Assembly (NCBI GenBank): GCA_018825865.1 | Contig: JAHKAF010000088.1 | Coordinates: forward strand, 1-13,868 | Source: Nanobdellota archaeon | Lineage (GTDB): Archaea; Nanobdellota; Nanobdellia; Pacearchaeales; GW2011-AR1 | Direction of reading: 5' to 3' | DNA: 13,868 nucleotides | In this document: positions 1-12,910 of the stretch, piece by piece | Layout of the letters: each line of letters opens with the position of its first letter | How positions within the stretch are numbered: position 1 is the stretch's first letter | The notes under the pieces: model-generated | The model's database searches: none | Told to the model about the DNA's origin: nothing | Seen by the model: the letters and a program-made list of their open reading frames with translations, nothing else | Made by a program: the position numbers and the translations under genes

Positions 1-165
1 ACTGAGAAAGATTTCTTTGAAAGAACATCACTGAATTATGATTCATTAATCGCTGTTGCAACAAAGATGCATCATTTAGAAGAGATGAGATTCCAAGAAT
101 ACCTAATAGAAGAACTTAATCAAAAATTAAGACAAAGAACACCTCGTGGTTCAGAAAGATTATAA
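1..165 (+). CDS. 3' end of an unrecognised gene (54 codons visible)
   Basis: Frame 1 is open from the window edge to a TAA at 163-165. The visible tail is polar and helix-prone, with an acidic/basic stretch around MHHLEEMRFQEYLIEELNQK, and ends in basic RQRTPRGSERL. No motif is recognisable, so no function is offered. It lies immediately upstream of the ribosomal-protein promoter on the same strand, and that promoter starts directly at its stop codon. It is therefore probably a separate transcription unit. The start and most of the gene lie outside the window. Confidence 0.55.
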   Translation, partial: TEKDFFERTSLNYDSLIAVATKMHHLEEMRFQEYLIEELNQKLRQRTPRGSERL

Positions 166-180
166 CGAAAACATTATAAA
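165..180 (+). promoter_or_regulatory. BRE/TATA promoter of the ribosomal-protein operon
   Basis: A purine-rich BRE-like stretch (CGAAAAC) is followed by the TATA-like octamer ATTATAAA at 173-180. The usual archaeal spacing of about 25 bp places transcription start near 202, leaving a leader of about 41 nt before the S19e ATG at 243. Most other genes here have the TATA box only about 25 bp from the ATG, so this operon is the exception with a real 5' leader. Confidence 0.55.
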
Positions 181-206
181 CCCATCATCTTCTATATTTT
201 TAGTTA

Positions 207-222
207 AATGGCTTTGGCCATT
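207..222 (+). promoter_or_regulatory. Hairpin in the S19e leader
   Basis: AATGGC (207-212), TTTG loop, GCCATT (217-222): a perfect 6-bp stem near the predicted 5' end of the mRNA and upstream of the Shine-Dalgarno-like GAGAGG at 231-236. A stem here could protect the transcript or regulate translation of the operon. This is inference from position only. Confidence 0.35.
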
Positions 223-246
223 CTAATTCCGAGAGGAATACTATGA
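208..246 (+). CDS. Possible 12-residue leader peptide overlapping the S19e start
   Basis: ATG at 208 opens a short frame reading MALAILIPRGIL. Its TGA (244-246) overlaps the S19e ATG (243-245) as ATGA, the arrangement this window uses for coupled genes (RNase H/Nudix, lysK/membrane protein). The predicted transcription start near 202 would make it nearly leaderless. Twelve open codons can occur by chance, so the coupling geometry is the only real support. Confidence 0.25.
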   Translation: MALAILIPRGIL

Positions 247-668
247 ATCCAGTATTTGAATTAAATGCACAAGAGTATAATTTGAAGTTAGCTGAGGCTT
301 TGAAGAATGTCGAGGAGTTTGCGGAGCCAGAGTGGGCGCAGTTTGTTAAGTCAGGTCCTGCAAAAGAGAGGCCGATTGACGACGCTGATTTCTGGTATAA
401 AAGAGCAGCAAGTATTTTGAGGCAGATTTATAAAAAGAAAATCGTCGGTGTTAATAGACTTAGGACAAAATACGGAAGTAAGAAAAATCGAGGTATGCAA
501 CCAGATATATTCAAACGGGGAAGTGGAAAAATTATACGGACGATTTTGCAACAGTCAGATGCTGCAGGTTTTACTGAAATCGCTAAAGACCTTAAGGGTT
601 TGAGAAGAAGAAAGCCAGGGAGACAAATTACTGCAAAAGGAAAAGAATTTTTGGAGGGTGTGAAATAA
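243..668 (+). CDS. rps19e: Small-subunit ribosomal protein S19e
   Basis: This 141-residue protein is near the usual archaeal S19e length. It has the family layout: an N-terminal helical part with WAQFVKSGPAKERPIDDADF and WYKRAASILRQIY, then a winged-helix core with VGVNRLRTKYGSKKNRG, and a C-terminal GRQITAKGKEFLEG. S19e is an archaeal/eukaryotic protein of the 30S head, needed for late maturation of the small subunit. The start is supported by GAGAGG seven bases upstream. It opens an operon that continues with two unknown small proteins, L39e and L31e. In many archaea a PDCD5-like protein follows S19e; none is visible here. Confidence 0.93.
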   Translation: MNPVFELNAQEYNLKLAEALKNVEEFAEPEWAQFVKSGPAKERPIDDADFWYKRAASILRQIYKKKIVGVNRLRTKYGSKKNRGMQPDIFKRGSGKIIRTILQQSDAAGFTEIAKDLKGLRRRKPGRQITAKGKEFLEGVK

Positions 669-669
669 G

Positions 670-867
670 ATGGCAGGGTATAAAATAATAAGTGAGAAAA
701 GAAAAGGGGAAACGCACCACCTATATTTTGTAGATGGAAAAGAAATAATAATTAGTAACATTGGGGAATTCCTACCTGAAGCAGTTATTCAAATTACAGA
801 CGGGCATTCAGAAATATTAAAGAAGATTACTACATTAAACCGATTAACTTATCTTGGAGAACATTAA
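670..867 (+). CDS. Small unknown protein in the ribosomal operon (65 aa)
   Basis: It starts one base after the S19e stop, with a strong GGAGGG at 653-658 inside the end of S19e. The first half alternates charged and hydrophobic residues in short strands (GYKIISEKRKGETHHLYFVDG, KEIIISNI), suggesting a small beta-rich fold. The second half looks helical (FLPEAVIQI, SEILKKITTL). There is no signal peptide or membrane segment, and I do not recognise the family. With the next gene it occupies the slot where many archaea carry PDCD5. The tight spacing argues that it is a real, co-translated gene, perhaps ribosome-linked, but no function can be read from it. Confidence 0.6.
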   Translation: MAGYKIISEKRKGETHHLYFVDGKEIIISNIGEFLPEAVIQITDGHSEILKKITTLNRLTYLGEH

Positions 868-868
868 A

Positions 869-1090
869 ATGGTAATTAGAAATAACATAGAATACCAATT
901 GATTGATAAATCCTTACTACCCCCAGGGTTGACAGAACATGCCTTTGGTAAAAGAGGAGATAAAGTATTAGTCGGCGAAGAAGGTAGAGAAGTTTACCTA
1001 CAACCTCTTTTATTAAAAGGGCGAAATCAATTCCTCCAGATTACTCAAGGAAAAAATACTCTCTTAGAACACTTAAAATATATTCAATAA
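869..1090 (+). CDS. Small unknown protein in the ribosomal operon (73 aa)
   Basis: The ATG at 869 lies one base after the preceding stop (TAA-A-ATG). An in-frame TTG at 854 exists but would overlap the upstream gene and is less likely. The protein begins MVIRNNIEYQLIDKSLLPPG and continues with a Gly/Lys/Glu-rich middle (GKRGDKVLVGEEGREVYLQP), which suggests a small beta barrel, and a C-terminal helix. There are no Cys, membrane segments or recognised motifs. It is adjacent to L39e with a 4-base gap (TAA-TAAA-ATG). Co-transcription with ribosomal proteins is the only clue to a role. Confidence 0.6.
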   Translation: MVIRNNIEYQLIDKSLLPPGLTEHAFGKRGDKVLVGEEGREVYLQPLLLKGRNQFLQITQGKNTLLEHLKYIQ

Positions 1091-1094
1091 TAAA

Positions 1095-1298
1095 ATGGGA
1101 ATAAAAAATAAAGCTAAAAAAGAAAAACTTGCTGTGAAAGCGCGGCAGACAAAATGGGCGCCGATATGGGCTGTACTTAGAAAGTACGGGATTGGTAAAA
1201 GAGTTCATCCGTCGACGATGACCAAGCACAGACGTTCATGGAGAAGAACTAAATTACATATTAAACCGCGAAAACAGAGGAAATCGCACTTCGGATAA
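1095..1298 (+). CDS. rpl39e: Large-subunit ribosomal protein L39e
   Basis: This 67-residue, highly basic protein has the L39e pattern: Lys-rich N-terminus, then WAPIWAVLRKYG (the conserved PxW region), a loop, and RRSWRRTKLHI. L39e is a tiny extended protein that lines the peptide exit tunnel in archaea and eukaryotes. Family members are usually about 51 residues. This one has extra residues in the loop (GKRVHPSTMTKH) and a basic tail of about 12 residues after RRTKL. It is followed after 4 bases (TAAA) by L31e, the classic archaeal L39e-L31e pair. Confidence 0.9.
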   Translation: MGIKNKAKKEKLAVKARQTKWAPIWAVLRKYGIGKRVHPSTMTKHRRSWRRTKLHIKPRKQRKSHFG

Positions 1299-1302
1299 TA
1301 AA

Positions 1303-1887
1303 ATGGCAAAGAAAAAATCAGAAGCAAAAGCAGACAAGATTGAAAGAGAATATGTTATTCCGCTTAGAAGAAAAGTCAAGCACGCTGTGAGGTATAAGAA
1401 AACACCGAAGGCGATTAGGACGATTAAAGAATTCTTGGCGAAACACATGAAAGTCTATGATAGAGATTTGAAAAAGATTAAAATTGATGGTTATTTGAAT
1501 GAGGCTGTTTGGAGAAGAGGGATAAAGAACCCCCCTCATAAAATTAAAGTTAAAGCTGTGAAGGACGGAGATATTGTCAGGGCAGAACTTGTTGATTATC
1601 CTACGAAGTTGAAGTTTAAGAAATTAAGATTAATTAAGAGAGACCAAACAGCACAAGATACTCTTGATAAGAATACCCTAAAGGGCACGAGAAAGAAAGT
1701 TGTGAAGGAAGATGTTAAACCTATGGAAAAAACCGACGAGGAGAAAAGAGAAGAGAAAGAGAAAGCACAGGCTGGTGCAGAGGTTATGCAGAAGATGGAG
1801 AAGGCTGCTGCGAAGACTGCAAAGCATCAGGCAGGCGGGAAAACTAAGTTACCAAAGAGAGAAAGAAGAATGGCTTTGGCTAAGTGA
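1303..1887 (+). CDS. rpl31e: Large-subunit ribosomal protein L31e with long C-terminal extension
   Basis: Residues about 12-113 match L31e: EREYVIPLRRKV, RTIKEFLAKHMK, LNEAVWRRGIKNPPHKIKV and the final strand ending KKLRLIKR. L31e sits near the tunnel exit on the large subunit. The family is normally about 80-100 residues, whereas this protein has 194. The extra roughly 80 residues are very charged: an acidic/basic coiled-coil-like stretch (EEKREEKEKAQ) and a basic end (KLPKRERRMALAK). Residues 124-130 are encoded by a 19-nt repeat also found in truB. The stop (1885-1887) overlaps the convergent RT gene by 8 bp. The eIF6 gene that often follows L31e in archaea is not here. Confidence 0.9.
   Translation: MAKKKSEAKADKIEREYVIPLRRKVKHAVRYKKTPKAIRTIKEFLAKHMKVYDRDLKKIKIDGYLNEAVWRRGIKNPPHKIKVKAVKDGDIVRAELVDYPTKLKFKKLRLIKRDQTAQDTLDKNTLKGTRKKVVKEDVKPMEKTDEEKREEKEKAQAGAEVMQKMEKAAAKTAKHQAGGKTKLPKRERRMALAK
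1673..1691 (+). repeat. Intragenic repeat core, copy 1 (in rpl31e)
   Basis: The 19-mer ATACCCTAAAGGGCACGAG is identical to 8172-8190 in truB and is 3 changes from 7947-7965. It contains the palindrome CCCT-AA-AGGG. It is read in frame as NTLKGTR within the non-conserved extension of L31e, where an insertion would be tolerated. Confidence 0.55.
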
Positions 1888-2908
1888 TTATTTCTCTTAT
1901 AAGTTCACTTCTCAATTTATTGGTATTGGCCAGATTTGTATAAGCACTCCAACCTTGAAAAATCTCAAAGAATTTTTCATAGCTAATTTCCCTTTTATTG
2001 AATAACTCTATTTTACATAGGATATTTCTAATATTCCTTTTCCTTAGAAGTTTGAAGTAATAAAAATTCCTGAATCCTACAAAATCAATTCCTCTAGAAA
2101 GATTGATAATTCTTGACTTATCTGGATGCAATTCTAATTTCAATTTCTTAGCCAGAAACTTATTAATCTCATTTTTCCAAATCTTTAATTGTTCTTTTGA
2201 AGGATGTAATATTACAAAATCGTCGACATAACGAATGTAATATTTGGCTCTTAGTTTATGCTTTACAAAATAATCCAATTCATTAAGATAAACATTAGCA
2301 AAGAATTGACTTGTTAAATTTCCTAAAGGCATTCCTTTGCCATCATTCATCGCAGTCTCTCTCTGACTCTGCTGGTTCTTCACAATCTGTTTGATTAGCC
2401 AGATTGTATCTTCATCCCTAACTTTTCTTTGAATAATTTTCAGCAAAATTTCATGATTAATCTCCTGAAAATAATGCCTAATGTCTGCTTTAAGGCAAAA
2501 TGCTTCTGAAGTTAAATTGTGTGTTACTTTTCTCTGAAATTTCTCGAATCTCTTTAAAGCAAACAAAGTTCCTTTGCCTTTTCTATTTGCACAATTGTCA
2601 TGAATAAATGTCCTGTCAAATATTGGCTCGAGGATATTGCAGATTGCATGATGAACAATTCTATCCCTAAAATCTGATTTTGAGATTTTACGAGTTTTTG
2701 GGTCTCGCAAAATAAATGTTTCTAATGGCTTTGGTTTGTAAATTTGATTCTTTAATTCCTCATGAAGTTTAAGCAGATTCTCTAATAAACTATCTTCAAA
2801 TTCCTTAACATAATCTTTCTTTGTTTTTCCTTTTCTTGCCTTTCTCCATGCTAAAGTCAAATTACCGAGGGAGATTATCTTTAGATAAAGATTTTTGTGA
2901 GATTTCAT
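1880..2908 (-). CDS. DGR-type reverse transcriptase
   Basis: This 342-residue RT is of normal length for diversity-generating retroelements. Visible landmarks are FRDRIVHHAICNILEPIFDR (79-98, fingers), KADIRHYF with catalytic D142, the DGR signature LGNLTSQ at 195-201 (group II intron RTs have QGxxxSP here), catalytic YVDD at 227-230, a primer-grip-like GIDFVGFR (273-280) and a thumb region with FQGWSAY. There is no maturase X, DNA-binding or endonuclease domain. It copies the TR RNA with adenine-specific errors into cDNA that replaces VR in the target gene. TR lies 35-119 bp upstream on the same strand. No separate accessory (Avd) gene is visible. The 3' end overlaps L31e tail to tail. Confidence 0.95.
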   Translation of the reverse strand: MKSHKNLYLKIISLGNLTLAWRKARKGKTKKDYVKEFEDSLLENLLKLHEELKNQIYKPKPLETFILRDPKTRKISKSDFRDRIVHHAICNILEPIFDRTFIHDNCANRKGKGTLFALKRFEKFQRKVTHNLTSEAFCLKADIRHYFQEINHEILLKIIQRKVRDEDTIWLIKQIVKNQQSQRETAMNDGKGMPLGNLTSQFFANVYLNELDYFVKHKLRAKYYIRYVDDFVILHPSKEQLKIWKNEINKFLAKKLKLELHPDKSRIINLSRGIDFVGFRNFYYFKLLRKRNIRNILCKIELFNKREISYEKFFEIFQGWSAYTNLANTNKLRSELIREIIT

Positions 2909-2942
2909 TTTTGCCTACGAAAATAAAGTCCTAGATAAAGAC

Positions 2943-3027
2943 TATTCCGAGATTGGAATTCCTACCAGAAGGATTCCTGTTGCAGTTGAGGTTAGCCCTA
3001 TCAGAGTTGGCATTGAACCTCGCGACT
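2943..3027 (-). repeat. DGR template repeat (TR)
   Basis: This 85-bp non-coding segment lies between the RT gene and the variable gene. Aligned without gaps to 3311-3395 (constant offset 368), it has 12 mismatches, at plus-strand positions 2945, 2946, 2953, 2954, 2960, 2975, 2981, 2987, 2993, 2999, 3008 and 3014. Every one is a T on the plus strand, that is an A in the minus-strand template. Read in the VR frame, TR carries eight AAY (Asn) codons. These codons can change at both A positions without ever giving a stop. Four AGG codons are also present. TR is expected to be transcribed as part of a structured RNA with flanking sequence. Confidence 0.95.
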
Positions 3028-3289
3028 ATCTATTGTAGCCAATTTACCAATTACCACTACCATTTCAATATTCACAATATTTCAGCTACTAATTGTTATG
3101 ATTGAATTTCATGACTTAAAATAAACCTAAATAATGTGCTAGCAAATTGACATGTAGTCTTTTTTTGCTTTTCTTGCTCAAGGAAAAACAAATCTCTAGG
3201 ACAAAGAAAGATAATAAATCATCTTTAAAAAATTTCGCGTCGCTTCGCGAATAATAATCTTTGTTTGATTATTTTAAGCGAGCAAAACC
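3028..3289 (-). other. Non-coding spacer between TR and the variable gene
   Basis: I see no gene of useful length here on either strand. It probably supplies the 5' part of the TR RNA and the 3' untranslated region of the variable gene. A hairpin TTCGCG (3234-3239), TCGCTT loop, CGCGAA (3246-3251) stands out in the AT-rich background. It is loosely flanked by AAAGATAATA-like and AATAATAATCTTT-like arms that could extend it. A T-rich run lies at 3161-3167. An Avd-like helical-bundle protein of about 100-130 residues, common in bacterial DGRs, would fit in this space but no such frame exists. Confidence 0.5.
3234..3251. promoter_or_regulatory. Hairpin between variable gene and TR
   Basis: A perfect 6-bp GC-rich stem (TTCGCG/CGCGAA) with a 6-nt loop, about 40 bp beyond the variable gene stop codon. 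It could be a 3'-end structure for the variable-protein mRNA or part of the TR RNA. It resembles the CTTCGCT-containing hairpins in the window's intergenic repeats. Confidence 0.4.
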
Positions 3290-4153
3290 TTATTCGTGCC
3301 TAACGGCACGTACCCCGAGACCGGAATACCTACCAGAAGGATACCTGTAGCAGTAGAGGTAAGCCCCATCAGAGTCGGCATCGAACCTCGCGACTGAATT
3401 GTTGTCGCTTATTGGAGCCCGATAGTATAAACTTCCTTCTTTTATATTTTTTCTTGGGAAGCCTTGTGCTGTTGGATTCTCAAGCCAATCTTCCAAAGAG
3501 ATTCCAGGAGTTTTGCCCTCCATTAAAGTATTTTTAGCGAGAACCCTTGAATTCTCAGGAATCAGTTTTCCATCTTCAAAAATATGATTAGAATTTACAT
3601 ATAATTTCCCATTCTTAACTTTAAAATCAGCGTCAAGCCATTCTGCTCTCCAAGGAGATGCCACTCCAAAAATATCCTCTCTATAGTTCTTGCAAGTTTC
3701 TGAGGAAATTGGTGTTCCAGAAGCATCATAAATTTTGACGTCTCCTTTACTTGCTTGGCCAAGAATATGTCCATAAGCTGTGAATTCTCTTATCCCAGGA
3801 GTTGTATTCCCTAATGCTAAATTAACCCTCAACATTTCAAACCAATTCATATCCCCAATAAACTCTCTTTCTAAAAAATCTTTTGCTGTATTTCTCAAGG
3901 TTAAATCTAATTTTTGCCCGACTTCCTCAATTGTTGGATTATAAGATAATCTTGCGGGATCGATAAGCATTCTTTGGTTTCCTTTTCTTTGGATTCCTTT
4001 TGGAATTGATTCATAAGGTATTGCCACCCAACCTTTTGTACCCAAATCTGCTATTTGTCCTTGTTCTGACTTTAATTCAAGAGGATTATATCCTAATTTT
4101 CTAAATCCCTCTGCTTGTTCTTTACTTATTTCAAATTGATAGATTGGTGCCAT
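3290..4153 (-). CDS. DGR target (variable) protein with C-type-lectin/FGE-like C-terminus
   Basis: This 287-residue protein has its last 35 residues built on a DGR VR. VR covers residues 253-281, and the protein ends LGVRAVRHE, similar to the GxR.xR end of FGE-sulfatase/C-type-lectin-fold DGR targets. Residues differing from the TR-encoded residue are D258, D260, G263, Y265, Y267, Y269, Y271, Y276, G278 and V281; TR encodes Asn at eight of these. The region SPWRAEWLDADF through LYYRAPISDNNSVARF (about 165-257) looks like the scaffold. Residues 1-90 are a separate, unrecognised N-terminal part. There is no signal peptide or membrane segment, so its site of action is unclear. It is expressed from a TATA box 25 bp upstream, apparently leaderless. 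Confidence 0.9.
   Translation of the reverse strand: MAPIYQFEISKEQAEGFRKLGYNPLELKSEQGQIADLGTKGWVAIPYESIPKGIQRKGNQRMLIDPARLSYNPTIEEVGQKLDLTLRNTAKDFLEREFIGDMNWFEMLRVNLALGNTTPGIREFTAYGHILGQASKGDVKIYDASGTPISSETCKNYREDIFGVASPWRAEWLDADFKVKNGKLYVNSNHIFEDGKLIPENSRVLAKNTLMEGKTPGISLEDWLENPTAQGFPRKNIKEGSLYYRAPISDNNSVARFDADSDGAYLYCYRYPSGRYSGLGVRAVRHE
3295..3310 (-). promoter_or_regulatory. GC-rich hairpin abutting VR (DGR target-recognition-like)
   Basis: CGTGCC (3295-3300), four-base loop, GGCACG (3305-3310): a perfect 6-bp inverted repeat directly next to the VR 3' end (3311), still inside the last codons of the variable gene. In the Bordetella phage DGR a hairpin/cruciform just downstream of VR is needed for efficient retrohoming. 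TR lacks an equivalent; its flank has only a weak 4-bp AGTC/GACT pair. That asymmetry is what would be expected if the hairpin marks the recipient copy. Confidence 0.65.
3311..3395 (-). repeat. DGR variable repeat (VR)
   Basis: This 85-bp segment at the 3' end of the target gene matches TR at 73 of 85 positions. On the coding strand the changes from TR are 7 A-to-G and 5 A-to-T; none starts from a non-A base. Two changes (3313, 3314) sit at the extreme 3' end. One of them is silent, and these may be fixed boundary differences rather than products of mutagenesis. Confidence 0.95.
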
Positions 4154-4174
4154 AAAAACTCTCAGAAATTAAAC

Positions 4175-4182
4175 TTTATAAA
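4175..4182 (-). promoter_or_regulatory. TATA box of the DGR variable gene
   Basis: TTTATAAA is centred 25.5 bp upstream of the ATG (4151-4153), preceded on the minus strand by a purine-rich BRE-like AGAAAAG. This predicts a leaderless mRNA and supports the chosen start. Confidence 0.6.
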
Positions 4183-4216
4183 CTTTTCTATCTGTTACTT
4201 TTTAGAAATAGTCACA

Positions 4217-4534
4217 CTAACCCTTTAACTCAAACCTATTTTGGTCTCGACCATATTGTTTGTCCATCTTTTTCTTCCAGGCTTCGTCGAGGTCAATGTT
4301 ATGTGAATTTGCTAAGCAGATAATTGCAAATATAATGTCGCAAAGTTCCTGTTCAATATCAGCAGTGTCTTCGGGGGACTTTTTTGTCCTCGGACCATAT
4401 CGATTATTAATCTCCCTTGCTAACTCTCCAACCTCCTCAACCATCTGGGCAATAATTTCCATCGGTTTAAAGTACTCAACCTTAAACTGCTTAACCCACT
4501 TGTGCACATCATATTGTGCGTCTTTTATTGCCAT
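4217..4534 (-). CDS. mazG: MazG-like nucleotide pyrophosphohydrolase
   Basis: This 105-residue, single-domain protein has the all-alpha NTP-PPase metal motifs: EEVGELAREI (ExxE at E34/E37) and EQELCDIIFAI (ExxD at E63/D66). Such enzymes hydrolyse (d)NTPs to NMP and pyrophosphate and often cleanse the nucleotide pool. The length is that of short YpjD/MazG-like members rather than two-domain MazG. The exact substrate cannot be read from sequence. It reads in the same direction as the DGR but has its own TATA box, so it is probably independent housekeeping. Confidence 0.88.
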   Translation of the reverse strand: MAIKDAQYDVHKWVKQFKVEYFKPMEIIAQMVEEVGELAREINNRYGPRTKKSPEDTADIEQELCDIIFAIICLANSHNIDLDEAWKKKMDKQYGRDQNRFELKG

Positions 4535-4554
4535 TATCTAGATTAGAAGAGAAT

Positions 4555-4562
4555 ATATTTAA
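4555..4562 (-). promoter_or_regulatory. TATA box of the MazG-like gene
   Basis: TTAAATAT on the minus strand is centred 24.5 bp upstream of the ATG at 4532-4534, consistent with a leaderless transcript. Confidence 0.5.
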
Positions 4563-4586
4563 GGATTTGTATAAGGAAGTAGTAGG

Positions 4587-4758
4587 TTCGCTCCGCTCAC
4601 TTATTGGGGCTTCGAAATCTGCTTCGCTTGATTTCTCCGCTAAGGGAGTTACTATCAATTTAACAAATTTCTAAACTTGGGGCTTAGTTACCTAACCTAT
4701 AATGCGAAGCTATTTAATTAACTACGTTCTTATCTCGAGCACATTGGTGCGAGCAAAT
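4587..4758. repeat. Structured intergenic repeat, copy R1
   Basis: This spacer between divergent mazG and alkD holds, in order: TTCGCTCCGCTCAC; an inverted repeat GAAATC (4614-4619)/GATTTC (4630-4635); a hairpin CTCC (4635-4638), GCTAAG loop, GGAG (4645-4648); AGTTACTATCAA; a TTTCTAAA block; and ATAATGCGAAGCT followed by TTAACT. The same blocks recur in the same order at 12734-12900 and, in part, at 8988-9220. The CTCC/GGAG stem is CTTC/GAAG in the other copies, a compensatory change. A further hairpin, CTCGAGCAC/GTGCGAG (4734-4753) with one bulge, ends just before the alkD TATA box. Confidence 0.55.
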
Positions 4759-4766
4759 CTTTTATA
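4759..4766 (+). promoter_or_regulatory. TATA box of the AlkD-like gene
   Basis: CTTTTATA is centred 25.5 bp before the ATG at 4788, indicating a leaderless mRNA and fixing the start. Confidence 0.55.
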
Positions 4767-4787
4767 CTCCTTCTTCTTCAAACAATT

Positions 4788-5492
4788 ATGTTATCATCTC
4801 TACAAGCTGAACTAAAATCCCTCGCTGATTTCAAACAGGCTGAAATCTCTCAGAGGTTTTTCAAAACTGGCGAGGGAGGATATGGAGAGGGAGATGTTTT
4901 CCTTGGAATAAAAGTTCCTATTCAGAGAGGTGTTGCTAAGAAGTTTATTGGTTTGAGTTTGCCAAGGATTCAGGAATTGTTGAATTCAAAAATTCACGAG
5001 GAGCGGCTTGTTGGATTGTTGATTCTAGTTGAAAAATTCAAGAAGTCCGAGGAAGTGGTCAGAGGGGACATATTTAATTTTTATATTAAAAATACAAAGA
5101 AGATTAATAATTGGGATTTGGTTGATTTGACTGCGCCGAATATTGTTGGAGAATTTCTTCTAGATAAGAAAAAGAAATCTGTATTATATGATTTAGCAGA
5201 ATCAGAAAATCTCTGGGAGAAGAGAATCGCTGTTCTTGCTACTTTCACTTTTATCAAAAACGAAGATTTCGAGGATGCTTTGAGAATTGCTGAGATTCTG
5301 CTTAACGACGAGCACGACTTAATTCACAAGGCTGTTGGATGGATGCTCAGGGAAATTGGTAAAAGGGATTTAGAAGTTGAAGAAAAATTTCTTAAAAGAT
5401 ATTGCAAGAAAATGCCGAGAACAATGTTAAGATACGCGATTGAAAAATTCGACGAGGGAAAAAGGAAATCTTACTTGAGAGGTAAAGTGTAA
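4788..5492 (+). CDS. alkD: AlkD-like DNA alkylation repair protein (HEAT-repeat DNA glycosylase)
   Basis: This 234-residue all-helical HEAT-like repeat protein is of family length. The N-terminal FFKTGEGGYGEGDVFLG and IKVPIQRGVAK are family hallmarks. The key residues described for Bacillus AlkD have clear counterparts: W109 and D113 in NNWDLVDLTAP, an Arg in WEKRIAVL (R146) and a Trp in KAVGWMLREIGKR (W185). AlkD excises positively charged alkylated bases such as N3- and N7-alkylpurines without base flipping. All the catalytic positions are present, so it is probably active. It stands alone between the R1 repeat and convergent glmS. Confidence 0.92.
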   Translation: MLSSLQAELKSLADFKQAEISQRFFKTGEGGYGEGDVFLGIKVPIQRGVAKKFIGLSLPRIQELLNSKIHEERLVGLLILVEKFKKSEEVVRGDIFNFYIKNTKKINNWDLVDLTAPNIVGEFLLDKKKKSVLYDLAESENLWEKRIAVLATFTFIKNEDFEDALRIAEILLNDEHDLIHKAVGWMLREIGKRDLEVEEKFLKRYCKKMPRTMLRYAIEKFDEGKRKSYLRGKV

Positions 5493-5515
5493 GATTTTCA
5501 TTCATTCGTCCAAGC

Positions 5516-5557
5516 ATGGCCAATGAGAGGAAGAAGTATTTGAGGGGGGGAATTTAG
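5516..5557 (+). other. Possible remnant of a duplicated alkD 3' end
   Basis: A 13-codon frame reading MANERKKYLRGGI ends at TAG 5555-5557, directly against the convergent glmS stop. It resembles the AlkD C-terminus (EGKRKSYLRGKV) that ends only 24 bp upstream. This could be a worn duplicate of the gene's tail; with so few residues, chance is possible. Confidence 0.2.
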
Positions 5558-7336
5558 TTATTTAACTGTAACAGATTTTGCCAGAGACCGAGGATAATCT
5601 ACATTGTGCCCTCTAAGAATCCCTAAATAATATGCAAGTAATTGAACTGGAATTAAATTTACAATTGAGGAACTTATCTCAGAGGTGTCAGGAGTTTTTA
5701 TCCAATAATCAAATGCTTCATTGTTCTCTGGAGCAATTCCGATTATTTTTGCTCCTCTTGACTTAACTTCTATTGCATTGCTAATTATCTCGTCTCTTGA
5801 AACATCATTTGATACTAAAACTATTACAGGAGTTCCTTCTTCAATCAATGCTATTGGACCATGTTTTAGTTCTCCTCCTCCAAAACCTTGGGCATGAATA
5901 TAACTTACTTCCATAATTTTAATCGCAGACTCCAAGGCCATTGGATAATTTACTCCCCTTCCAATTATGAACATATTCTCTTTTTGATATATTTTTTCTG
6001 CAATATTTTTGATATGTTCACTATAACGAGGGTTTAACATATCATTTACTTTTGCGGCGAGGTCCACTAACAACCTATCTCCTTCTCTTAACATTCCAGA
6101 ACAAGCATATGCTAGTAAAATAACAACTGCTATTTGAGAGGTTGTTGCTTTTGTTGATGCAACTGCTTTTTCAGGTCCTGCATTGATATGGAATACATAA
6201 TCAGAGATTTTAGACACTGAAGACTCTTGAACATTTACAATAGAAATTACTTTTGAACCTTTTTCCTTAGCTATTTTAAGAGCTTCGAGAACATCTGCTG
6301 TTTCTCCACTTTGCGATATTGCAATAACTAATGTTTCTGGTAATAAAAAATGTTTATAATTCCCAAATTCAGAAGCTGGTACAAAATTTACATGTTTGTC
6401 TGCTATAGAAGAAAAGACATATTCAGCAGTATGGCAAACCCTCGCAGCTGTCCCACATCCAATAAAGAATACCCCTCTTGAATTATTTATTTCTTCTGCC
6501 ACATGCATTAATTCTCTATCATTCTGATTAATTGCTTTCATTAATGTCTGTTTTTGGTCCATAATTTCCTTTAACATGAAATGCGCATAATCTCCTTTAG
6601 TAACTGGTGAAAAATCTATATCTATCTTAATTAATCTTTTTTCTATTTTTTCATTAGTATTAATATCATAAAATTCAGGTTTTTCTTTGATTATAACTAT
6701 TTGATCATCGTCGAGATACATTACTTCTTTTGTTTCATGTAAAAAAGCTTGTATATCTGAAGCAATAAAAATTTCTGAAAATCCATTAATCTTTTTTAAC
6801 CCAACAATTAAAGGAGACCCGTTTCTAAATGCAATTATTTCTTCTGTATCTGCATGTAAAACAACAAAGGCATTTCTTCCTTTCAATTTCTTACCAGTGT
6901 TTATTACAGCTTGTTTTAATGAGAATCCCTCTCTGATTTCATCTTCTATTAAATGAGGTATTACTTCTGTATCTGTTTCACTAAAAAATTTATGTGTTCT
7001 CAAAAGTTCATTCCTTAGTTCTTGAAAATTTTCAATAATCCCATTATGAACAACTGCAATTTTTCTACTGCAATCTATATGAGGGTGCGTATTTTTCTCT
7101 GTAACCTTGCCATGGGTTGCCCATCGAGTATGACCAATTCCAATTTTCCCACTAACTTCATTGCATTTTGTTTCACTTACTTTCCCAACTTGTTTCTCAA
7201 TGTTAAGGCTCCCACTTTCTGAAAGAACGGCCAGTCCAAAACTATCATACCCTCTATATTCCAATTTTTTCAATGAATCTATAATCACTGGAAAAGCTTG
7301 CTTTTCTATATTCCAAAAACCTATAATCCCACACAT
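5558..7336 (-). CDS. glmS: Glutamine--fructose-6-phosphate aminotransferase (isomerizing)
   Basis: This 592-residue enzyme makes glucosamine-6-phosphate from fructose-6-phosphate and glutamine, the entry to amino-sugar and glycan synthesis. I place the start at 7336 because the class II glutaminase needs Cys as residue 2 (MCGIIGFW), which becomes the free N-terminal nucleophile. An ATG 12 bp upstream (7348) would bury it, and the TATA spacing also fits 7336. Landmarks: YRGYDS, HTRWATHG and HNGIIENF in the glutaminase domain (1 to about 220); two SIS domains with GCGTAAR, SQSGETADVLEA, KAVASTKATT and GGGELKHGPIALI; and the conserved end DYPRSLAKSVTVK. Full length and intact. It is divergent from truB with a shared promoter. 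Confidence 0.97.
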   Translation of the reverse strand: MCGIIGFWNIEKQAFPVIIDSLKKLEYRGYDSFGLAVLSESGSLNIEKQVGKVSETKCNEVSGKIGIGHTRWATHGKVTEKNTHPHIDCSRKIAVVHNGIIENFQELRNELLRTHKFFSETDTEVIPHLIEDEIREGFSLKQAVINTGKKLKGRNAFVVLHADTEEIIAFRNGSPLIVGLKKINGFSEIFIASDIQAFLHETKEVMYLDDDQIVIIKEKPEFYDINTNEKIEKRLIKIDIDFSPVTKGDYAHFMLKEIMDQKQTLMKAINQNDRELMHVAEEINNSRGVFFIGCGTAARVCHTAEYVFSSIADKHVNFVPASEFGNYKHFLLPETLVIAISQSGETADVLEALKIAKEKGSKVISIVNVQESSVSKISDYVFHINAGPEKAVASTKATTSQIAVVILLAYACSGMLREGDRLLVDLAAKVNDMLNPRYSEHIKNIAEKIYQKENMFIIGRGVNYPMALESAIKIMEVSYIHAQGFGGGELKHGPIALIEEGTPVIVLVSNDVSRDEIISNAIEVKSRGAKIIGIAPENNEAFDYWIKTPDTSEISSSIVNLIPVQLLAYYLGILRGHNVDYPRSLAKSVTVK

Positions 7337-7358
7337 AATAAAATCCATAGTTTAAAAA

Positions 7359-7366
7359 TTTATAAA
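7359..7366. promoter_or_regulatory. Shared palindromic TATA box for glmS and truB
   Basis: TTTATAAA is its own reverse complement. Its centre is 26.5 bp from the glmS ATG (7336) and 25.5 bp from the truB ATG (7388), the spacing expected for leaderless transcripts in both directions. No second TATA box is evident in the 51-bp gap. TBP could bind either way, with orientation set by the flanking BRE on each side (TTTAAAAA for truB; AAATC for glmS). Confidence 0.65.
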
Positions 7367-7387
7367 GATTTATGTTGTAGGGTATTT

Positions 7388-8389
7388 ATGGCTATAAATC
7401 TACAAAAACTAAAATCAAAAAAATCAATTCAAGAACTCCTTGAATTCGGCATTATTAATATTGATAAGCCGTCGGGACCGACGAGTTTTAATGTTTCTGA
7501 TTTTGTTCGGAAAACTTTGGGTTTGAGGAAAACGTCTCACTTTGGAACACTTGACCCGAAGGTTACAGGAGTTTTGCCTATAGCACTGAATAGGGCTTGC
7601 AAACTTACAGGTTATTTTATTGGGGAAGATAAAGAGTATGTTGGAATTATGAGAATCCACGACGATGTTTCACTTGATAAAATTAAGAAAATGATTAAAG
7701 AAAAGTTTATGGGGGTGATTAAACAAACCCCACCTGTGAAGTCGCGGGTTAAACGGCAGGAGCGCGAAAGGGAAATTATTAAGTTTAAGTTGTTGGAGAA
7801 AGACAGAAGAGATATTTTGTTTCATGTTGAATGTCAAGGGGGAACTTATATTCGGAAGTTAGTTGATGATTTGGGAAAGGAGTTGGGAATCGGTGCGCAT
7901 ATGTTAGAACTCCGACGGGTTCGGGCAGGTATTTTTGAGGAAAACGATACCCTAAAGGACACAAGTAAAGATTATCCGTCGGTAAATTTGTATGATTTTG
8001 AAAAAGCGGTTGAAAAGTATAAAGAAGGTGATGATAAATTATTGAGAGAGATTATAATTCCGGGAGAGGTGATTAGCAAATTGCATCAGGTTATTAAAAT
8101 TAAAGATGATAATCTCGCAAAATTATTAACAGGTAAACCGATTCATGAAGATGATTTGCGCAGTTCTGCGTATACCCTAAAGGGCACGAGCCCAAAATTG
8201 CGGAATGAAGGGGCAAAGAAATCAAAGATTGGGGTAGGAGAGATTGTGGTTGTTTTCTGCGGGGAGAGATTTGTGGGGATGTATAAAGTTATTAAAGATG
8301 GGAATGTTTATGCTAAATCAGAGTTTGTATTTCAAGAAATTAAATTGCCGACTTCGTCGGACGCTCGTCGACGCAGTCACCACGCATAA
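7388..8389 (+). CDS. truB: Cbf5/TruB-family RNA pseudouridine synthase with in-frame insertions
   Basis: This 333-residue protein starts at MAINLQKL because of the TATA spacing; a longer in-frame extension from 7298 would run through the promoter and glmS. The catalytic core has IDKPSGPTSF and HFGTLDPKVTGVLP with catalytic D56, then QTPPVKSRVKR, GGTYIRKLVDDLG and LRRVRAGIF. A PUA domain follows at about 233-317. Archaeal Cbf5 acts in H/ACA RNPs on rRNA and, with Nop10, on tRNA. Two stretches look inserted: residues about 190-198 (between DTL and VNLYDF) and about 257-279 in a PUA loop, both carrying the TLK(G/D)T-encoding repeat. The C-terminal tail after VFQEI is also odd and hairpin-encoded. 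Followed by trmY. Confidence 0.92.
   Translation: MAINLQKLKSKKSIQELLEFGIINIDKPSGPTSFNVSDFVRKTLGLRKTSHFGTLDPKVTGVLPIALNRACKLTGYFIGEDKEYVGIMRIHDDVSLDKIKKMIKEKFMGVIKQTPPVKSRVKRQEREREIIKFKLLEKDRRDILFHVECQGGTYIRKLVDDLGKELGIGAHMLELRRVRAGIFEENDTLKDTSKDYPSVNLYDFEKAVEKYKEGDDKLLREIIIPGEVISKLHQVIKIKDDNLAKLLTGKPIHEDDLRSSAYTLKGTSPKLRNEGAKKSKIGVGEIVVVFCGERFVGMYKVIKDGNVYAKSEFVFQEIKLPTSSDARRRSHHA
7947..7965 (+). repeat. Intragenic repeat core, copy 2 (in truB)
   Basis: This stretch matches the 19-mer at 1673-1691 and 8172-8190 at 16 of 19 positions (GGACACAAG instead of GGGCACGAG at its end). It is read in frame as DTLKDTS, followed by KDYPS before the family sequence resumes at VNLYDF, so a short insertion is likely here. 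Confidence 0.45.
8159..8223 (+). repeat. In-frame intragenic palindromic element, full copy A (truB PUA domain)
   Basis: The element runs: hairpin CGCAG-TT-CTGCG (8159-8170), TATACC, palindrome CCCT-AA-AGGG (8175-8184), CACGAG, then GCCC (8190-8193) pairing with GGGC (8211-8214) around a loop with CGGAATG, then AAAGAAA. It matches copy B at 13321-13403 block by block, including CGCnGnTCnGCGTATACC, GGGCAC, CGGAATG and GGGGCAAAGAAA. It encodes RSSAYTLKGTS and PKLRNEGAKK in the middle of the PUA domain, between GKPIHEDDL and IGVGEIVVV. Confidence 0.65.
8348..8360 (+). repeat. Hairpin encoding the odd truB C-terminal tail
   Basis: CCGAC (8348-8352), TTC, GTCGG (8356-8360) is a perfect 5-bp stem followed by the GC-rich ACGCTCGTCGACGC. 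It encodes the tail LPTSSDARRRSHHA beyond the normal PUA end. The composition differs sharply from the AT-rich surroundings and resembles the other GC-rich repeats in the window. Confidence 0.35.
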
Positions 8390-8402
8390 TGCAGGAGATA
8401 AA

Positions 8403-8987
8403 ATGAAACACCTAATATATTTTTCAGCAAAAGCAGCGACGAGTGGGAAGGCTTTGTCCCAGGGAAATTTAATGAAAGCAGGTAGAATGGATATTGCAAT
8501 TCATTCACTTATTCAAGGGATTTTTCTTTCGCATGATTTTCGGAAAGATATTAGGTTTCATTTTGTTTTTTATGGAATGCCAGACCCTCCAAAACATATT
8601 GAGATTCAGGTTGAAGATGGGACACCAATAAGCAAGAAAGATGTTGGGAATTTGATTAAGCAGATTTTGTATAAGTATCGGGAGGGTGAGAAGACAGAAG
8701 TTTTTCCTGGGTGTTTTGTGGAGAAAAAGAGTTTTTTGAATGTTGTGGAGGAATTGGAAAAGAAGGGTAGTGAGATTTTCATTCTTGATAAAAGAGGTGA
8801 GGATATTAGAAAGGCAGAGATTTCTGAAAATTGTGTTTTTATATTGGGGGACCAGAAAGGGCTTCCGAAGAAGGAATTGAAAAGGTTGAAAAAAATAGCG
8901 ACTTCGGTTTCTGTTGGTCCTAAAACATATTTTGCCTCGCAGACGATTGCGATTGTGAATAATGAATTGGATAGGCGAGGGATTTAG
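8403..8987 (+). CDS. trmY: tRNA (pseudouridine(54)-N1)-methyltransferase TrmY
   Basis: This 194-residue SPOUT-family methyltransferase starts at ATG 8403 with AGGAG at 8393-8397; the longer frame upstream overlaps truB and is not used. The family signatures are MKHLIYFSAKAATSG, GNLMKAGRMDIAIHSL, the SAM-binding trefoil-knot region CVFILGDQKGLPKKEL and VSVGPKTYFASQTIAIVNNELDR. TrmY methylates N1 of pseudouridine-54 in the archaeal T-loop, giving m1-pseudouridine in place of ribothymidine. It lies 13 bp after truB in the same direction, so a pseudouridine-forming and a pseudouridine-methylating enzyme are probably co-expressed. Confidence 0.95.
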   Translation: MKHLIYFSAKAATSGKALSQGNLMKAGRMDIAIHSLIQGIFLSHDFRKDIRFHFVFYGMPDPPKHIEIQVEDGTPISKKDVGNLIKQILYKYREGEKTEVFPGCFVEKKSFLNVVEELEKKGSEIFILDKRGEDIRKAEISENCVFILGDQKGLPKKELKRLKKIATSVSVGPKTYFASQTIAIVNNELDRRGI

Positions 8988-9220
8988 TCTCGCTTCGCTC
9001 GGGATTAATTACTCCGAAATCTGCTCTTGATTTCGCACGAGTTATTGATTTCAGATTACTCTCTACCACGAAGTCGTTCGGCTTCACCAAATTTCTTCGC
9101 TAAAGAAGTTGTTAATCTAATGGGCTAAGGATTATAATCTGATAATTATCACAAATTTATTTTGTTTAACTATTCCGCGCGTCAGCGCCTAAGGGCGGGG
9201 GGCGGACGAAAGAAGTAATC
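8988..9220. repeat. Structured intergenic repeat, copy R2
   Basis: It begins directly after the trmY TAG with TCTCGCTTCGCTCGGGATTAATTA. Next come GAAATC (9016-9021)/GATTTC (9029-9034), nested with AATCTG/CAGATT (9018-9023/9052-9057), a GAAGTC/GGCTTC hairpin, CTTC (9095-9098)-GCTAAA-GAAG (9105-9108), and the 10-bp palindrome GATTATAATC (9130-9139). A GC-rich tail follows with CGCC-TAAG-GGCG (9186-9197). The first half shares its blocks with R1 and R3; the GC-rich tail is specific to this copy. No coding frame is convincing here. Confidence 0.55.
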
Positions 9221-9229
9221 TCAACAAAC

Positions 9230-9237
9230 TTAATAAA
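9230..9237 (+). promoter_or_regulatory. TATA box of the acylphosphatase gene
   Basis: TTAATAAA is centred 25.5 bp upstream of the ATG at 9259, implying a leaderless transcript. Confidence 0.5.
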
Positions 9238-9258
9238 CTACTTCTGTTTATTCTATTT

Positions 9259-9534
9259 ATGAAGAAATCTGTTAGACTTTATATCGATGGAACTGTGCAA
9301 GGGGTTTTTTTTAGGGCATTTGTTAAGGAGAATGCAGAGAGGCATAATGTCAAGGGGTTTGTGAGAAATTTAGAGGATGGAAGAGCAGAGGTTTTTCTTG
9401 AAGGGGATAATAAAGACGTGAATAAAATGATTGAGTTATGTAAAAAAGGTCCGAAGCACTCGCAGATAAGGAAAGTGGAAGTCAAATCGGAGACGTTTCA
9501 GGATTTCAAGGTTTTCAAAATACTTCACGTTTAG
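9259..9534 (+). CDS. acyP: Acylphosphatase
   Basis: This 91-residue protein is of typical family length. The two signatures are intact: GTVQGVFFRAF with the phosphate-binding Arg (R19), and GFVRNLEDGRAEVFLEG with the catalytic Asn (N37). It hydrolyses acyl phosphates such as acetyl phosphate and carbamoyl phosphate in the cytosol. It appears monocistronic, between repeat R2 and a small hairpin after its stop codon. Confidence 0.95.
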   Translation: MKKSVRLYIDGTVQGVFFRAFVKENAERHNVKGFVRNLEDGRAEVFLEGDNKDVNKMIELCKKGPKHSQIRKVEVKSETFQDFKVFKILHV

Positions 9535-9537
9535 TTC

Positions 9538-9552
9538 AGTCTTTTGAAGACT
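9538..9552 (+). terminator. Hairpin after acyP
   Basis: AGTCTT (9538-9543), TTG, AAGACT (9547-9552) starts 4 bp after the acyP stop. It may mark the 3' end of the mRNA. Archaea usually terminate on T-tracts rather than hairpins and no T-tract follows, so the role is uncertain. Confidence 0.3.
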
Positions 9553-9594
9553 TAAAGGCATGCATATATAATATATTTTAGAGGATAATAATTG

Positions 9595-9602
9595 ATTTAA
9601 AT
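9595..9602 (+). promoter_or_regulatory. TATA-like box of the small unknown gene at 9623
   Basis: ATTTAAAT is centred 24.5 bp upstream of the ATG at 9623. The region is very AT-rich (a GCATATATAATATATTTTAG stretch lies just upstream), so the assignment is tentative. Confidence 0.35.
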
Positions 9603-9622
9603 TCTATATCTTAATTACTAAA

Positions 9623-9883
9623 ATGTTATGTGATTTTGGCAGAGAAATAGATGAAGAATCTCTTGATGGTTGTAATGATGTAGCAAGATATAAATTATTA
9701 TATAGTGTTAATAAAGATATTTGGGAGGAATATGGTTTAAGCGGGGATTGTTGGGGGTATGAAAAATATTCTTGTAAAGACCACCTCTTAAATTCAAGTT
9801 TTATATATGATTCTACTCACGGCACCCCAGACATAATATATGATTTAGAAAAAGATAGAGAAATAACATTAACTACTCGCTGA
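9623..9883 (+). CDS. Small unknown acidic Cys-containing protein (86 aa)
   Basis: The family is not recognised. The protein is acidic and rich in Tyr and Trp, with four Cys (C3, C17, C43, C51). The central segment YGLSGDCWGYEKYSCKD is unusual. It has no signal peptide or membrane segment. Four Cys plus H54/H66 could bind a metal, but there is no CxxC pair. TATA-like boxes stand at the expected distance before this gene and before the next one, so it is probably a separate short transcription unit. It is more weakly supported than its neighbours. Confidence 0.45.
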   Translation: MLCDFGREIDEESLDGCNDVARYKLLYSVNKDIWEEYGLSGDCWGYEKYSCKDHLLNSSFIYDSTHGTPDIIYDLEKDREITLTTR

Positions 9884-9894
9884 TTAACCATCAA

Positions 9895-9902
9895 TTATTT
9901 AA
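9895..9902 (+). promoter_or_regulatory. TATA-like box of the RNase HI gene
   Basis: TTATTTAA is centred about 26.5 bp before the ATG at 9925, matching the leaderless pattern elsewhere in the window. Confidence 0.35.
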
Positions 9903-9924
9903 CTAAAACTTATTTTTATTAATC

Positions 9925-10359
9925 ATGATTTACACAAACTCGGATGGCGGAGCCCGCGGAAATCCTGGGCCTGGAGCAATTGGAGTTATAATTAGGAAAG
10001 ATGGAAAAATTGTTACAAGATACAGTAAGTTTATTGGGCAAGAGGTTACAAATAATATTGCAGAATACGAGGCATTGATAATGGCGTTGGAATTGGCTTC
10101 TGAACACACCAGCGATGAAGTGACTTGCGTTCTTGATTCTGAATTAATTGTTAAACAGCTTCTTGGAGAGTATCGGGTGAGAAATCCAAAGTTACTTGAA
10201 TTGTTTTTGAAAGTGCAGAAACTTCAGGAGAGGTTCAACAAAATCAAATATCTTCATGCAAGTAGATGGGACAAATTCCAGCAAATTGCCGATGAACTTG
10301 TCAACGAGGAACTCACAAAAAGAGGTTTCAGGAAGAAGGGTTGGGGGAAGAAGGGATGA
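9925..10359 (+). CDS. rnhA: Ribonuclease HI
   Basis: This 144-residue type 1 RNase H cuts the RNA strand of RNA-DNA hybrids. The four acidic active-site positions can be seen: D7 in NSDGGARGNPGPGAIG, E47 in NNIAEYEAL, D71 in VLDSELIVKQL and D123 in QIADELVNEEL. The family relative is the archaeal/Sulfolobus-like type with a compact RNase H fold and no N-terminal hybrid-binding domain. The C-terminal GFRKKGWGKKG is basic. Its stop overlaps the next start as ATGA, so the Nudix gene is translationally coupled to it. Confidence 0.93.
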   Translation: MIYTNSDGGARGNPGPGAIGVIIRKDGKIVTRYSKFIGQEVTNNIAEYEALIMALELASEHTSDEVTCVLDSELIVKQLLGEYRVRNPKLLELFLKVQKLQERFNKIKYLHASRWDKFQQIADELVNEELTKRGFRKKGWGKKG

Positions 10360-10763
10360 AAATAAAGAAATGTGTTGGTGCAATAATTCATAATAACGAA
10401 GGGAGAATATTTCTGATGACCTCTCCAAAATGGAAAGGATGGATTATTCCTGGGGGAGAAATAGAAAGTGATGAAACAGAAGAACAATCACTAAAGAGGG
10501 AGATTTTAGAAGAATTGGGGATTGAAATAGAAGATATTACAAGGGTCGGAGAGAAGATAAAAAAAGCAGAGAGGGATTTTTATGATAGTAACGTGGAATT
10601 TCATTTTATTGATTTTTTTGCAAGGGCAAAACAAACAAATATAACCCCTAATGAAGAGATTTCTGATTATGGATGGTTTACAATTGACGAAGCGCTCCAG
10701 CTTAATCTGCTTGACACTACAAAAGAGCTAATTGAAAAGTTCAGAGATTTCAATAAAGATTAA
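10356..10763 (+). CDS. Nudix hydrolase
   Basis: This 135-residue protein carries a perfect Nudix box from G34 to I56 (G-x5-E-x7-REILEELGI, matching GX5EX7REUXEEXGU). The preceding KWKGWIIPGGEIE is also typical. Nudix enzymes hydrolyse nucleoside diphosphates linked to another group. The substrate is not predictable here; sanitation of damaged NTPs is one possibility next to RNase H. The ATG at 10356 overlaps the RNase H stop by 4 bp and is preferred over an in-frame TTG at 10341. Confidence 0.92.
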   Translation: MKIKKCVGAIIHNNEGRIFLMTSPKWKGWIIPGGEIESDETEEQSLKREILEELGIEIEDITRVGEKIKKAERDFYDSNVEFHFIDFFARAKQTNITPNEEISDYGWFTIDEALQLNLLDTTKELIEKFRDFNKD

Positions 10764-10764
10764 A

Positions 10765-10772
10765 TATAAAAA
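10765..10772 (+). promoter_or_regulatory. TATA box of lysK
   Basis: TATAAAAA is centred 25.5 bp upstream of the ATG at 10794, just after the Nudix stop. This indicates that lysK starts its own leaderless transcript. Confidence 0.55.
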
Positions 10773-10793
10773 GTTGATTTATTTTTTTCTTTA

Positions 10794-12290: not shown

Positions 12291-12544
12291 AATTCTTACT
12301 AAAAATCTTAATTGGAATAATTGCCATAGTAATCGCAGTTCTCTTAGTTGTGCAAGGCAACCCTCCTGAGTTCTTTGACATATTTGGGTTAATTGTATTT
12401 ATCTTCTTATTTATCATAGGTATCTTAATGATTCATGGAAAGAAACTTCCTGATTGGACAGGATTTGTAATTTTACTAATCGCCATATTAGGTTTAATTG
12501 TCGACGGCTCAATAATAATTAAAAAATTTATCTTAGGAGGTTAA
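12287..12544 (+). CDS. Small membrane protein with three transmembrane helices
   Basis: This 85-residue protein is almost entirely hydrophobic. Helices run at about 3-22, 32-49 and 58-74, with short polar loops (QGNPPEFFD and HGKKLPDWTG) and a basic end (IIIKKFILGG). The family is not recognised. It is translationally coupled to lysK and followed with no gap by the histone-fold gene. A second copy of this gene begins at 13812, again coupled to a LysRS C-terminal domain, and the first 19 codons there are identical at nucleotide level. Confidence 0.75.
   Translation: MKFLLKILIGIIAIVIAVLLVVQGNPPEFFDIFGLIVFIFLFIIGILMIHGKKLPDWTGFVILLIAILGLIVDGSIIIKKFILGG
12535..12541 (+). promoter_or_regulatory. 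Strong Shine-Dalgarno before the histone-fold gene
   Basis: AGGAGGT is encoded by the last Gly-Gly codons of the membrane-protein gene and lies only 3 bp before the ATG at 12545. It indicates initiation within the lysK operon rather than from its own promoter. Confidence 0.55.
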
Positions 12545-12733
12545 ATGCCAGGATTAATCATAAAATCAAACATCAAGAAAGCTGTTAAAGAACTGGATAA
12601 AAATAACGAAGTCACGAGTGTTGCCGAGGAAGTTGGGCTGGCTCTTGAAAGGAAAGTTGAGGAAGTTTTAAAAGATGCTATCCAAAGGGCGAGGGAAAAT
12701 AAAAGGCGGACTTTGCAGGGGAGAGATATTTAG
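12545..12733 (+). CDS. Short histone-fold (DUF1931-like) DNA-binding protein
   Basis: This 62-residue protein is shaped like half of an archaeal histone fold: a short N-terminal helix (MPGLIIKSNIKKAVKEL), then a long helix ALERKVEEVLKDAIQRARENKR and the closing RRTLQGRDI, which matches the ...KRKT(V/I)...DI end of histones. Such proteins dimerise to bind and compact DNA. It is shorter than classic HMf-type histones (about 67 residues) and closer to DUF1931-type proteins. It is the last gene of the lysK operon, and repeat R3 begins right after its TAG. Confidence 0.7.
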   Translation: MPGLIIKSNIKKAVKELDKNNEVTSVAEEVGLALERKVEEVLKDAIQRARENKRRTLQGRDI

Positions 12734-12900: not shown

Positions 12901-12910
12901 ATTAATATAC
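12901..12910 (+). promoter_or_regulatory. TATA box of the chimeric gene
   Basis: ATTAATATAC is centred about 25 bp upstream of the ATG at 12931. That supports this start over the out-of-frame ATG at 12915 and over the internal Met codon of residue 16. Confidence 0.45.

Follow-up and report, generated by a model that had tools for sequence, protein, structure and literature searches.

A chromosomal diversity-generating retroelement of a Pacearchaeales archaeon with a probably self-contained template RNA closed like that of a retron

The stretch of DNA considered here (the window) comprises 13,868 nucleotides (nt) from a Nanobdellota archaeon of the Pacearchaeales (GenBank assembly GCA_018825865.1, contig JAHKAF010000088.1, positions 1 to 13,868). 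Judged by sequence, its minus strand, on which all features of the element lie, carries a diversity-generating retroelement (DGR) formed by a reverse transcriptase (RT), a template repeat (TR), a variable repeat (VR) and a target gene. Overall, the evidence favours, with a probability of roughly 0.78, a chromosomal DGR that works without the protein Avd and whose self-contained template RNA is closed around TR in a retron-like fashion. Part of this RNA is a member of the Rfam family RT-16, which the original prediction, made from the sequence of the window, had overlooked.

The RT belongs to the DGR clade. It is encoded by an intact open reading frame (ORF) of 342 aa (1880–2908) in which both the LGNLTSQ motif and the active-site YVDD are present, as originally read, and it shows 65–74% identity to the 119 other proteins listed; it provides the only RVT_1 domain match in the window's own assembly (G000; 590,629 bases, 77% complete). 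The closest solved relative is the RT of the BPP-1 DGR, and the structural model is of modest quality (predicted local distance difference test, pLDDT, 75.5). In an RT tree, the 36 rows of RTs that accompany RT-16 fall into a single group, next to the 9 rows of phage and Avd-type RTs; the tree contains only two retron-like outgroup rows and no group II rows, and with its long branches the bootstrap support is unsettled. A placement among DGR RTs had been proposed as a check on the element, and the window RT falls with them by sequence, model and tree and is not of the retron type.

The 85-bp repeat pair described earlier is likewise real, and its adenine-only differences identify TR (2943–3027) and VR (3311–3395). 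Over 81 nt, all ten differences fall on TR adenines, of which there are 22 (hypergeometric p = 3.4e-7), five of them A to G and five A to T; the full 85-nt alignment has 12 differences, all of them among its 25 TR adenines and none at any other base. Searching the window's assembly with TR, its adenines replaced by N, returned one TR and one VR only, both at this locus. VR covers codons 253–281 at the 3′ end of a target gene of 287 aa (3290–4153), so that the order target, VR, TR, RT was correctly given. TR ends in an IMH*-like motif (TCGGAATAG, 2942–2950) and VR in an IMH-like motif (TCGGGGTAC, 3310–3318; IMH, initiation of mutagenic homing), both recognised by comparison with the available part of PMC4372165. 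A hairpin (CGTGCC-GTTA-GGCACG, 3295–3310) follows VR immediately on its 3′ side within the target gene; an IMH pair with a hairpin behind VR is a mark of DGRs. The target protein is modelled with a C-type-lectin-like fold resembling that of DGR variable proteins, with VR in the 3′ part of its gene as is typical of DGRs. The original idea that the element varies a putative ligand-binding protein is supported. Among 44 homologues, VR codons that contain a TR adenine are more variable than the others (2.44 versus 0.94 bits, p = 1.8e-4). No Pfam or NCBIfam domain was found in the target; a B3-like domain in one of the 44 members (E 0.006) was taken as chance, and the single match of the target profile to PDB sequences (E 0.32) was not used. 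Three shorter homologues (P0178, P0195, P0217; about 200–230 aa) keep the variable C-terminal domain behind a shorter and different N-terminal part. With a DGR-clade RT, adenine-only repeats, a lectin-like target, an IMH pair and a hairpin, the original identification of a genuine DGR stands.

The RT-16 RNA (RF03019) occupies 3030–3192, where the match is full-length (model positions 1–158 of 158) and scores 94.3 bits against a gathering threshold of 50; two nucleotides separate it from TR. RT-16 was found in 29 of 92 genomes among relatives and in all three named RT relatives from the genome-contig scan (two Candidatus Pacearchaeota and one unclassified archaeon). Across 371 genomes of the phylum, the window's own included, it occurs in 107, an RT match at E <= 0.001, a threshold that may admit RTs of other classes, in 118, and both together in 103. 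Of 54 RT-16 loci examined, the window among them, 43 gave a TR/VR pair in an adenine-aware scan and 11 gave none. In 38 of these 43 loci TR starts between −9 and +4 nt from the RT-16 end, which argues that RT-16 is the 5′ part of the DGR template RNA; two of the remaining five have TRs at +29 and +45, and in three the best-scoring repeat lies elsewhere. The RT is encoded on the same strand as RT-16 in 43 of the 54 loci, on the opposite strand in four, and is not found in the fetched stretch in seven, some of which lie at contig ends; the RT-16–TR RNA may therefore work in trans. Where the RT runs the opposite way (L018, L024, L025, L028) it lies downstream of the RT-16–TR unit. Matches to RT-11 (RF03106), for example in L080 and L131, are all below cut-off and occur in 24 of the 371 genomes, several of them at RT-16 places; RT-11 seems to be a sister form of this RNA.

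Two helices supported by covariation and by folding would close the RNA around TR. The outer helix, P1, joins a 5′-most GUCCUAG-like motif (GUCCUAGA, 3195–3202), the predicted 5′ end of the RNA, to a CUAGGAC-like tail (UCUAGGAC, 2928–2935). The inner helix, P2, has its 5′ strand (AAAGACUA) at 3155–3162 and its 3′ strand (UAGUCUUU), which overlaps the last two nucleotides of TR, at 2937–2944; it joins nucleotides at or just 5′ of a conserved CUACAYGY element (CUACACGC, 3150–3157), located at the end of the P2 5′ strand, to those at or just 3′ of the TR end. In a fixed register across 49 loci, 490 of 588 P2 cells are standard pairs, compared with 370 ± 9 when the 3′ strands are dealt to other loci (5000 permutations, maximum 406), and when the register is slid by 1 to 3 positions the paired fraction drops from 0.83 to at most 0.48. 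At position 2, 32 loci have U-A and 17 have C-G, with no exceptions. Some TR ends in this set were chosen by eye; with ends set by rule only, 33 loci still give 319 of 396 pairs against 247 ± 7 (maximum 275 in 20,000 permutations). When mapped onto the RT tree, the pair types of the six P2 positions checked require 6–10 changes in all, and well-supported branches alone force 2–5 changes for the common pair types, so that relatedness by itself does not explain the covariation. For P1, the best ungapped helix score is 1012 against 785 ± 20 (n = 49). A motif-free test of end pairing gave 23.6 against 18.2 ± 0.45 in 40 RT-16 loci, and no excess in nine DGRs without RT-16 (18.8 against 18.1 ± 0.8, p = 0.21). 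The unconstrained minimum-energy fold of the 282-nt window RNA contains P1, a local hairpin, P2 and a core stem, with a fold energy (z −2.1) that 4 of 200 shuffled sequences equal. As in retrons, complementary 5′ and 3′ ends enclose a structured RNA and a template. That the GGCUA at the 3′ end of RT-16 pairs with the end of TR was considered and rejected: TR ends in TGR in loci with a CCA element and in TAR in loci with a CTA or TTA element, yet the 3′ GGCTA does not follow. Pairing between an AAGUC within the core and the GACUU of the tail was also considered; AAGTCAT occurs in 12 of 54 loci only.

The ends of the RNA may be further marked by a TATA-like, T/A-rich element at 3224–3232, 22–30 nt upstream of P1, a position that is common to relatives. 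When 29 loci are aligned on the P1 motif, T reaches 75–89% at −29 to −27 and A 72–79% at −24 to −22, figures that come from a T-rich region and carry no shuffle control for this element. The usual distance of an archaeal TATA box fits a transcription start at P1, and in sequence and spacing the element resembles such a box. The four loci whose RT is encoded on the opposite strand keep the tail motif, which speaks against a ribosome-binding site and makes the RNA look like an independent unit.

Taken together, these features suggest how the element could work. A template RNA of about 275 nt, probably transcribed from its own promoter, would consist of the 5′ P1 strand, the local hairpin, the 5′ P2 strand, the conserved element, the RT-16 core, TR, the 3′ P2 strand, the 3′ P1 strand and a T-rich end. 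P1 and P2 would hold both ends together around TR much as, in a retron RNA, self-complementary ends join msr to msd, and the RT would bind the RT-16 core. Complementary DNA (cDNA) synthesis may begin at the 3′ end of TR beside P2, from a 2′-OH in or next to the conserved element; such priming is proposed because of the analogy with retrons and with the internal adenine of BPP-1. Since the 5′ side of the closing helix ends at this element and its 3′ side at the end of TR, the analogy predicts priming from a 2′-OH on the 5′ side. The RT would then copy TR with errors at adenines and presumably halt on reaching the RT-16 core, next to the 5′ end of TR. The cDNA could replace VR by homology, with the IMH/IMH* difference and the hairpin that follows VR giving the direction, and this would vary a lectin-like binding face at up to 13 codons.

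A conventional DGR, in which a BPP-1-type spacer overlaps the RT start, the Avd role falls to an unrecognised small protein and RT-16 stands apart as a regulatory or leader RNA of the RT, is an unlikely reading of the same locus. The Avd model (NF033474) has no match in the window's own assembly, whose 77% completeness speaks for this alternative; so do the unassigned Avd-sized ORFs drawn in the DUSEL4 DGRs in the accessible part of Paul et al. 2015 (PMC4372165) and the weak Avd-like proteins of 22 further genomes. However, the model scores above cut-off in only 3 of 371 genomes, at loci of the same phylum that are arranged as Avd, TR, long spacer and RT and lack RT-16; one genome (G063) has both kinds of DGR, on different contigs. 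Two of the seven weak Avd-like matches that were fetched (L090, L095) adjoin rRNA genes. Proteins of rRNA intervening sequences are expected beside rRNA genes, unlike the Avd of a DGR. Such proteins may account for Avd-like matches of this kind (PMC10053308, in its available part). The spacing also speaks against it: the distance from TR to the RT start is 34 nt in the window and 12–80 nt (median 24.5, 32 loci) in RT-16 DGRs, as against about 155–226 nt in BMP-1, L086 and L087. The Phage_DGR RNA (RF03022), which in BMP-1 sits between TR and RT (2855–2987 of L122), has no match in the window at gathering and none in 2800–3450 at E up to 1, and the window DGR lacks a structured TR–RT spacer of the BPP-1 type. 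Finally, the enclosure of TR by P1 and P2 and the persistence of the tail in loci with an oppositely encoded RT are at odds with a separate leader RNA.

Two further explanations are less probable still. The DGR could be decayed, its TR and VR reflecting past activity of an RT or RNA that no longer functions, and RT genes that are read in two frames in 14 of 76 non-redundant relatives point in that direction. The window RT, by contrast, is intact, with its active-site YVDD and 65–74% identity to the listed proteins, TR, VR, IMH, hairpin, RT-16, P1 and P2 are all retained, and not one non-adenine difference has accumulated over the 85 nt, which makes decay improbable. That the RT-16–TR–RT unit is a true relative of retrons recruited for mutagenesis is suggested by the RNA topology; it is highly improbable given that the RT groups with DGR RTs by sequence, model and tree, that the template is a TR matching a VR, and that the Pfam matches of neighbouring genes revealed no retron effector.

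It is important to point out that several observations weigh against the favoured reading, that of an Avd-less DGR with a closed template RNA. P2 position 3 is a C-A mismatch in 14 of 49 loci, and the probability of P2 in free folding exceeds 0.5 in 34 of 49 loci and is only 0.40 in the window. The P1 5′ strand also pairs locally above chance (738 against 637 ± 16), as it does in the Rfam consensus, so alternative folds are possible. Four genomes have RT-16 without an RT match and 15 the reverse; of the three among these 15 that were inspected, G119 carries a truncated RT-16 next to its RT, G399 has an RT-11 match below cut-off adjoining its own, and no RT-16 was found at the RT locus of G412. 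Moreover, since the RT is not of the retron type, the resemblance in RNA topology may have arisen by convergence and the analogy on priming may be mistaken.

The RT genes of the relatives point to a possible additional layer of control. The window RT carries a short (AG)4.5 tract, CAGAGAGAGAC, at 2355–2365, which is in frame as AGAGAGAGA at about codon 182, the site of long G or GA tracts in relatives. With a tract defined as a run of at least 8 G/C or at least 4 GA/TC units, 23 of the 76 related RT genes bear one, and RT sequence holds 24 tracts in 76.7 kb, compared with 14 in the 292 kb of DNA around it (Poisson p = 1.8e-12). All but two of these 24 map to window-RT residues 177–196, a loop with low model confidence at 181–189, or to residues 237–240. 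Tracts of G8–12 or of 18–26 nt of GA in these loops are present in 13 of the 14 two-frame genes, L097 being the only one without a long tract. Long tracts also occur in RT genes that are in frame, such as the G12 of L085. Poly-G (8–12) or GA (8–26 nt) tracts are seen, for instance, in L100, L102, L104, L108, L111, L112, L118, L020, L033, L038, L049, L052 and L054. Two-subunit (split) RT genes were considered and rejected, as the junctions show a frameshift at repeat tracts instead. The sequence pattern looks like phase variation, with the reservation that tract lengths in assemblies can be wrong. A more far-reaching reading, in which a large clade of archaeal DGRs does without Avd, an RNA of retron topology closed by P1 and P2 replaces both Avd and the 3′ spacer, priming proceeds from a 2′-OH 5′ of the template and the RT is in addition switched on and off through slippage at G/GA tracts in the loop before motif 4, making hypermutation itself phase-variable, is put forward tentatively, at somewhat less than even odds.

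The genes that flank the DGR are chromosomal in character: ribosomal proteins S19e and L31e, MazG, a DNA alkylation repair protein, a GATase/SIS protein (GlmS-like), TruB, lysyl-tRNA synthetase and an archaeal histone-like protein. The two ribosomal proteins and the histone-like protein agree with the DPANN origin suggested at the outset, and so do the named RT relatives, two of which are Candidatus Pacearchaeota. A viral origin found no match in the viral-contig scan, which detects close relatives only; among 177 phage records, the nearest to the RT is that of ANMV-1 virus (41%). L31e (1303–1887) has 194 aa in all, with a long charged C-terminal extension. Two blocks that are 86–87% identical (11868–12343 and 13393–13868) contain the last part of the lysyl-tRNA synthetase gene together with the first part of the gene after it; the second copy, at the contig end, lies within ORF 12931–13815 behind a different N-terminal part.

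DGRs of DPANN archaea, including the nanoarchaeal kind reported in 2015, are already known; the template-RNA architecture and the RT tract look new in the sources searched. No link between RT-16 and DGRs and no description of phase variation of a DGR-type RT was found in the literature searched, outside which Weinberg 2017 and Paul 2017 may already treat RT-16 or archaeal DGR RNAs; the terms Avd, accessory and non-coding RNA do not occur in the accessible main text of Roux 2021 (PMC8144416). In the DGRs that have been studied at the bench, both Avd and the 3′ spacer belong to the core, and a retron-like fold-back of the RNA suggests that cassettes with a compact RNA in place of both may start mutagenic copying in a second way. 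If so, the RT-16 and RT-11 families would gain a function, DGRs and retrons would be linked mechanistically by one shared initiation geometry, and a two-part hypermutation system of RT and RNA would be open to direct test. Phase variation of the RT, if it occurs, would place hypermutation under a further switch that acts at the level of the population.

The DUSEL4 Nanoarchaeota DGRs, as far as the available text of Paul et al. 2015 (PMC4372165) describes them, share a DPANN host, an IMH pair (TGGGGT and TGGAAT there, CGGGGT and CGGAAT in the window), a hairpin inside the target gene and Avd-sized ORFs with no sure Avd. Their hairpins have GRA loops, and GAA or GGA triloops occur in 16 of 33 loci here, whereas the window has a GTTA tetraloop; they number four or more, compared with one DGR in the window's 77% complete assembly, and the portion of that paper covered describes no structured RNA 5′ of TR. 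With BPP-1 and BMP-1 the window shares the RT class, the adenine rule, the fold class of the target, the IMH pair and the hairpin after VR. In BPP-1, according to the available part of PMC12875486, avd lies 5′ of TR and a structured TR–RT spacer recruits RT–Avd and holds the cDNA-priming adenine; the window differs in having RT-16 5′ of TR, only 34 nt between TR and RT, and no Avd match. The Rfam description of RF03019 reads only 'RT-16 RNA', and Rfam 15 lists the family as RT-16 with no function (PMC11701678, available part). Its consensus contains a local 5′ hairpin, whereas the covariation seen here pairs the 3′ arm of that hairpin with the TR end instead. The sister family RT-11 cross-matches some of the same places. 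In retrons, finally, a 5′ structured RNA is followed by the template and then by a helix that joins both RNA ends, and a conserved element marks where the 5′ strand of this helix stops (PMC6868368, in the part available). The window RNA follows the same order with a DGR RT, a TR matched by a VR and no recognised effector, and its conserved element stands, by analogy, where retrons have the priming guanosine of their 2′–5′ branched RNA–DNA, beside the end helix.

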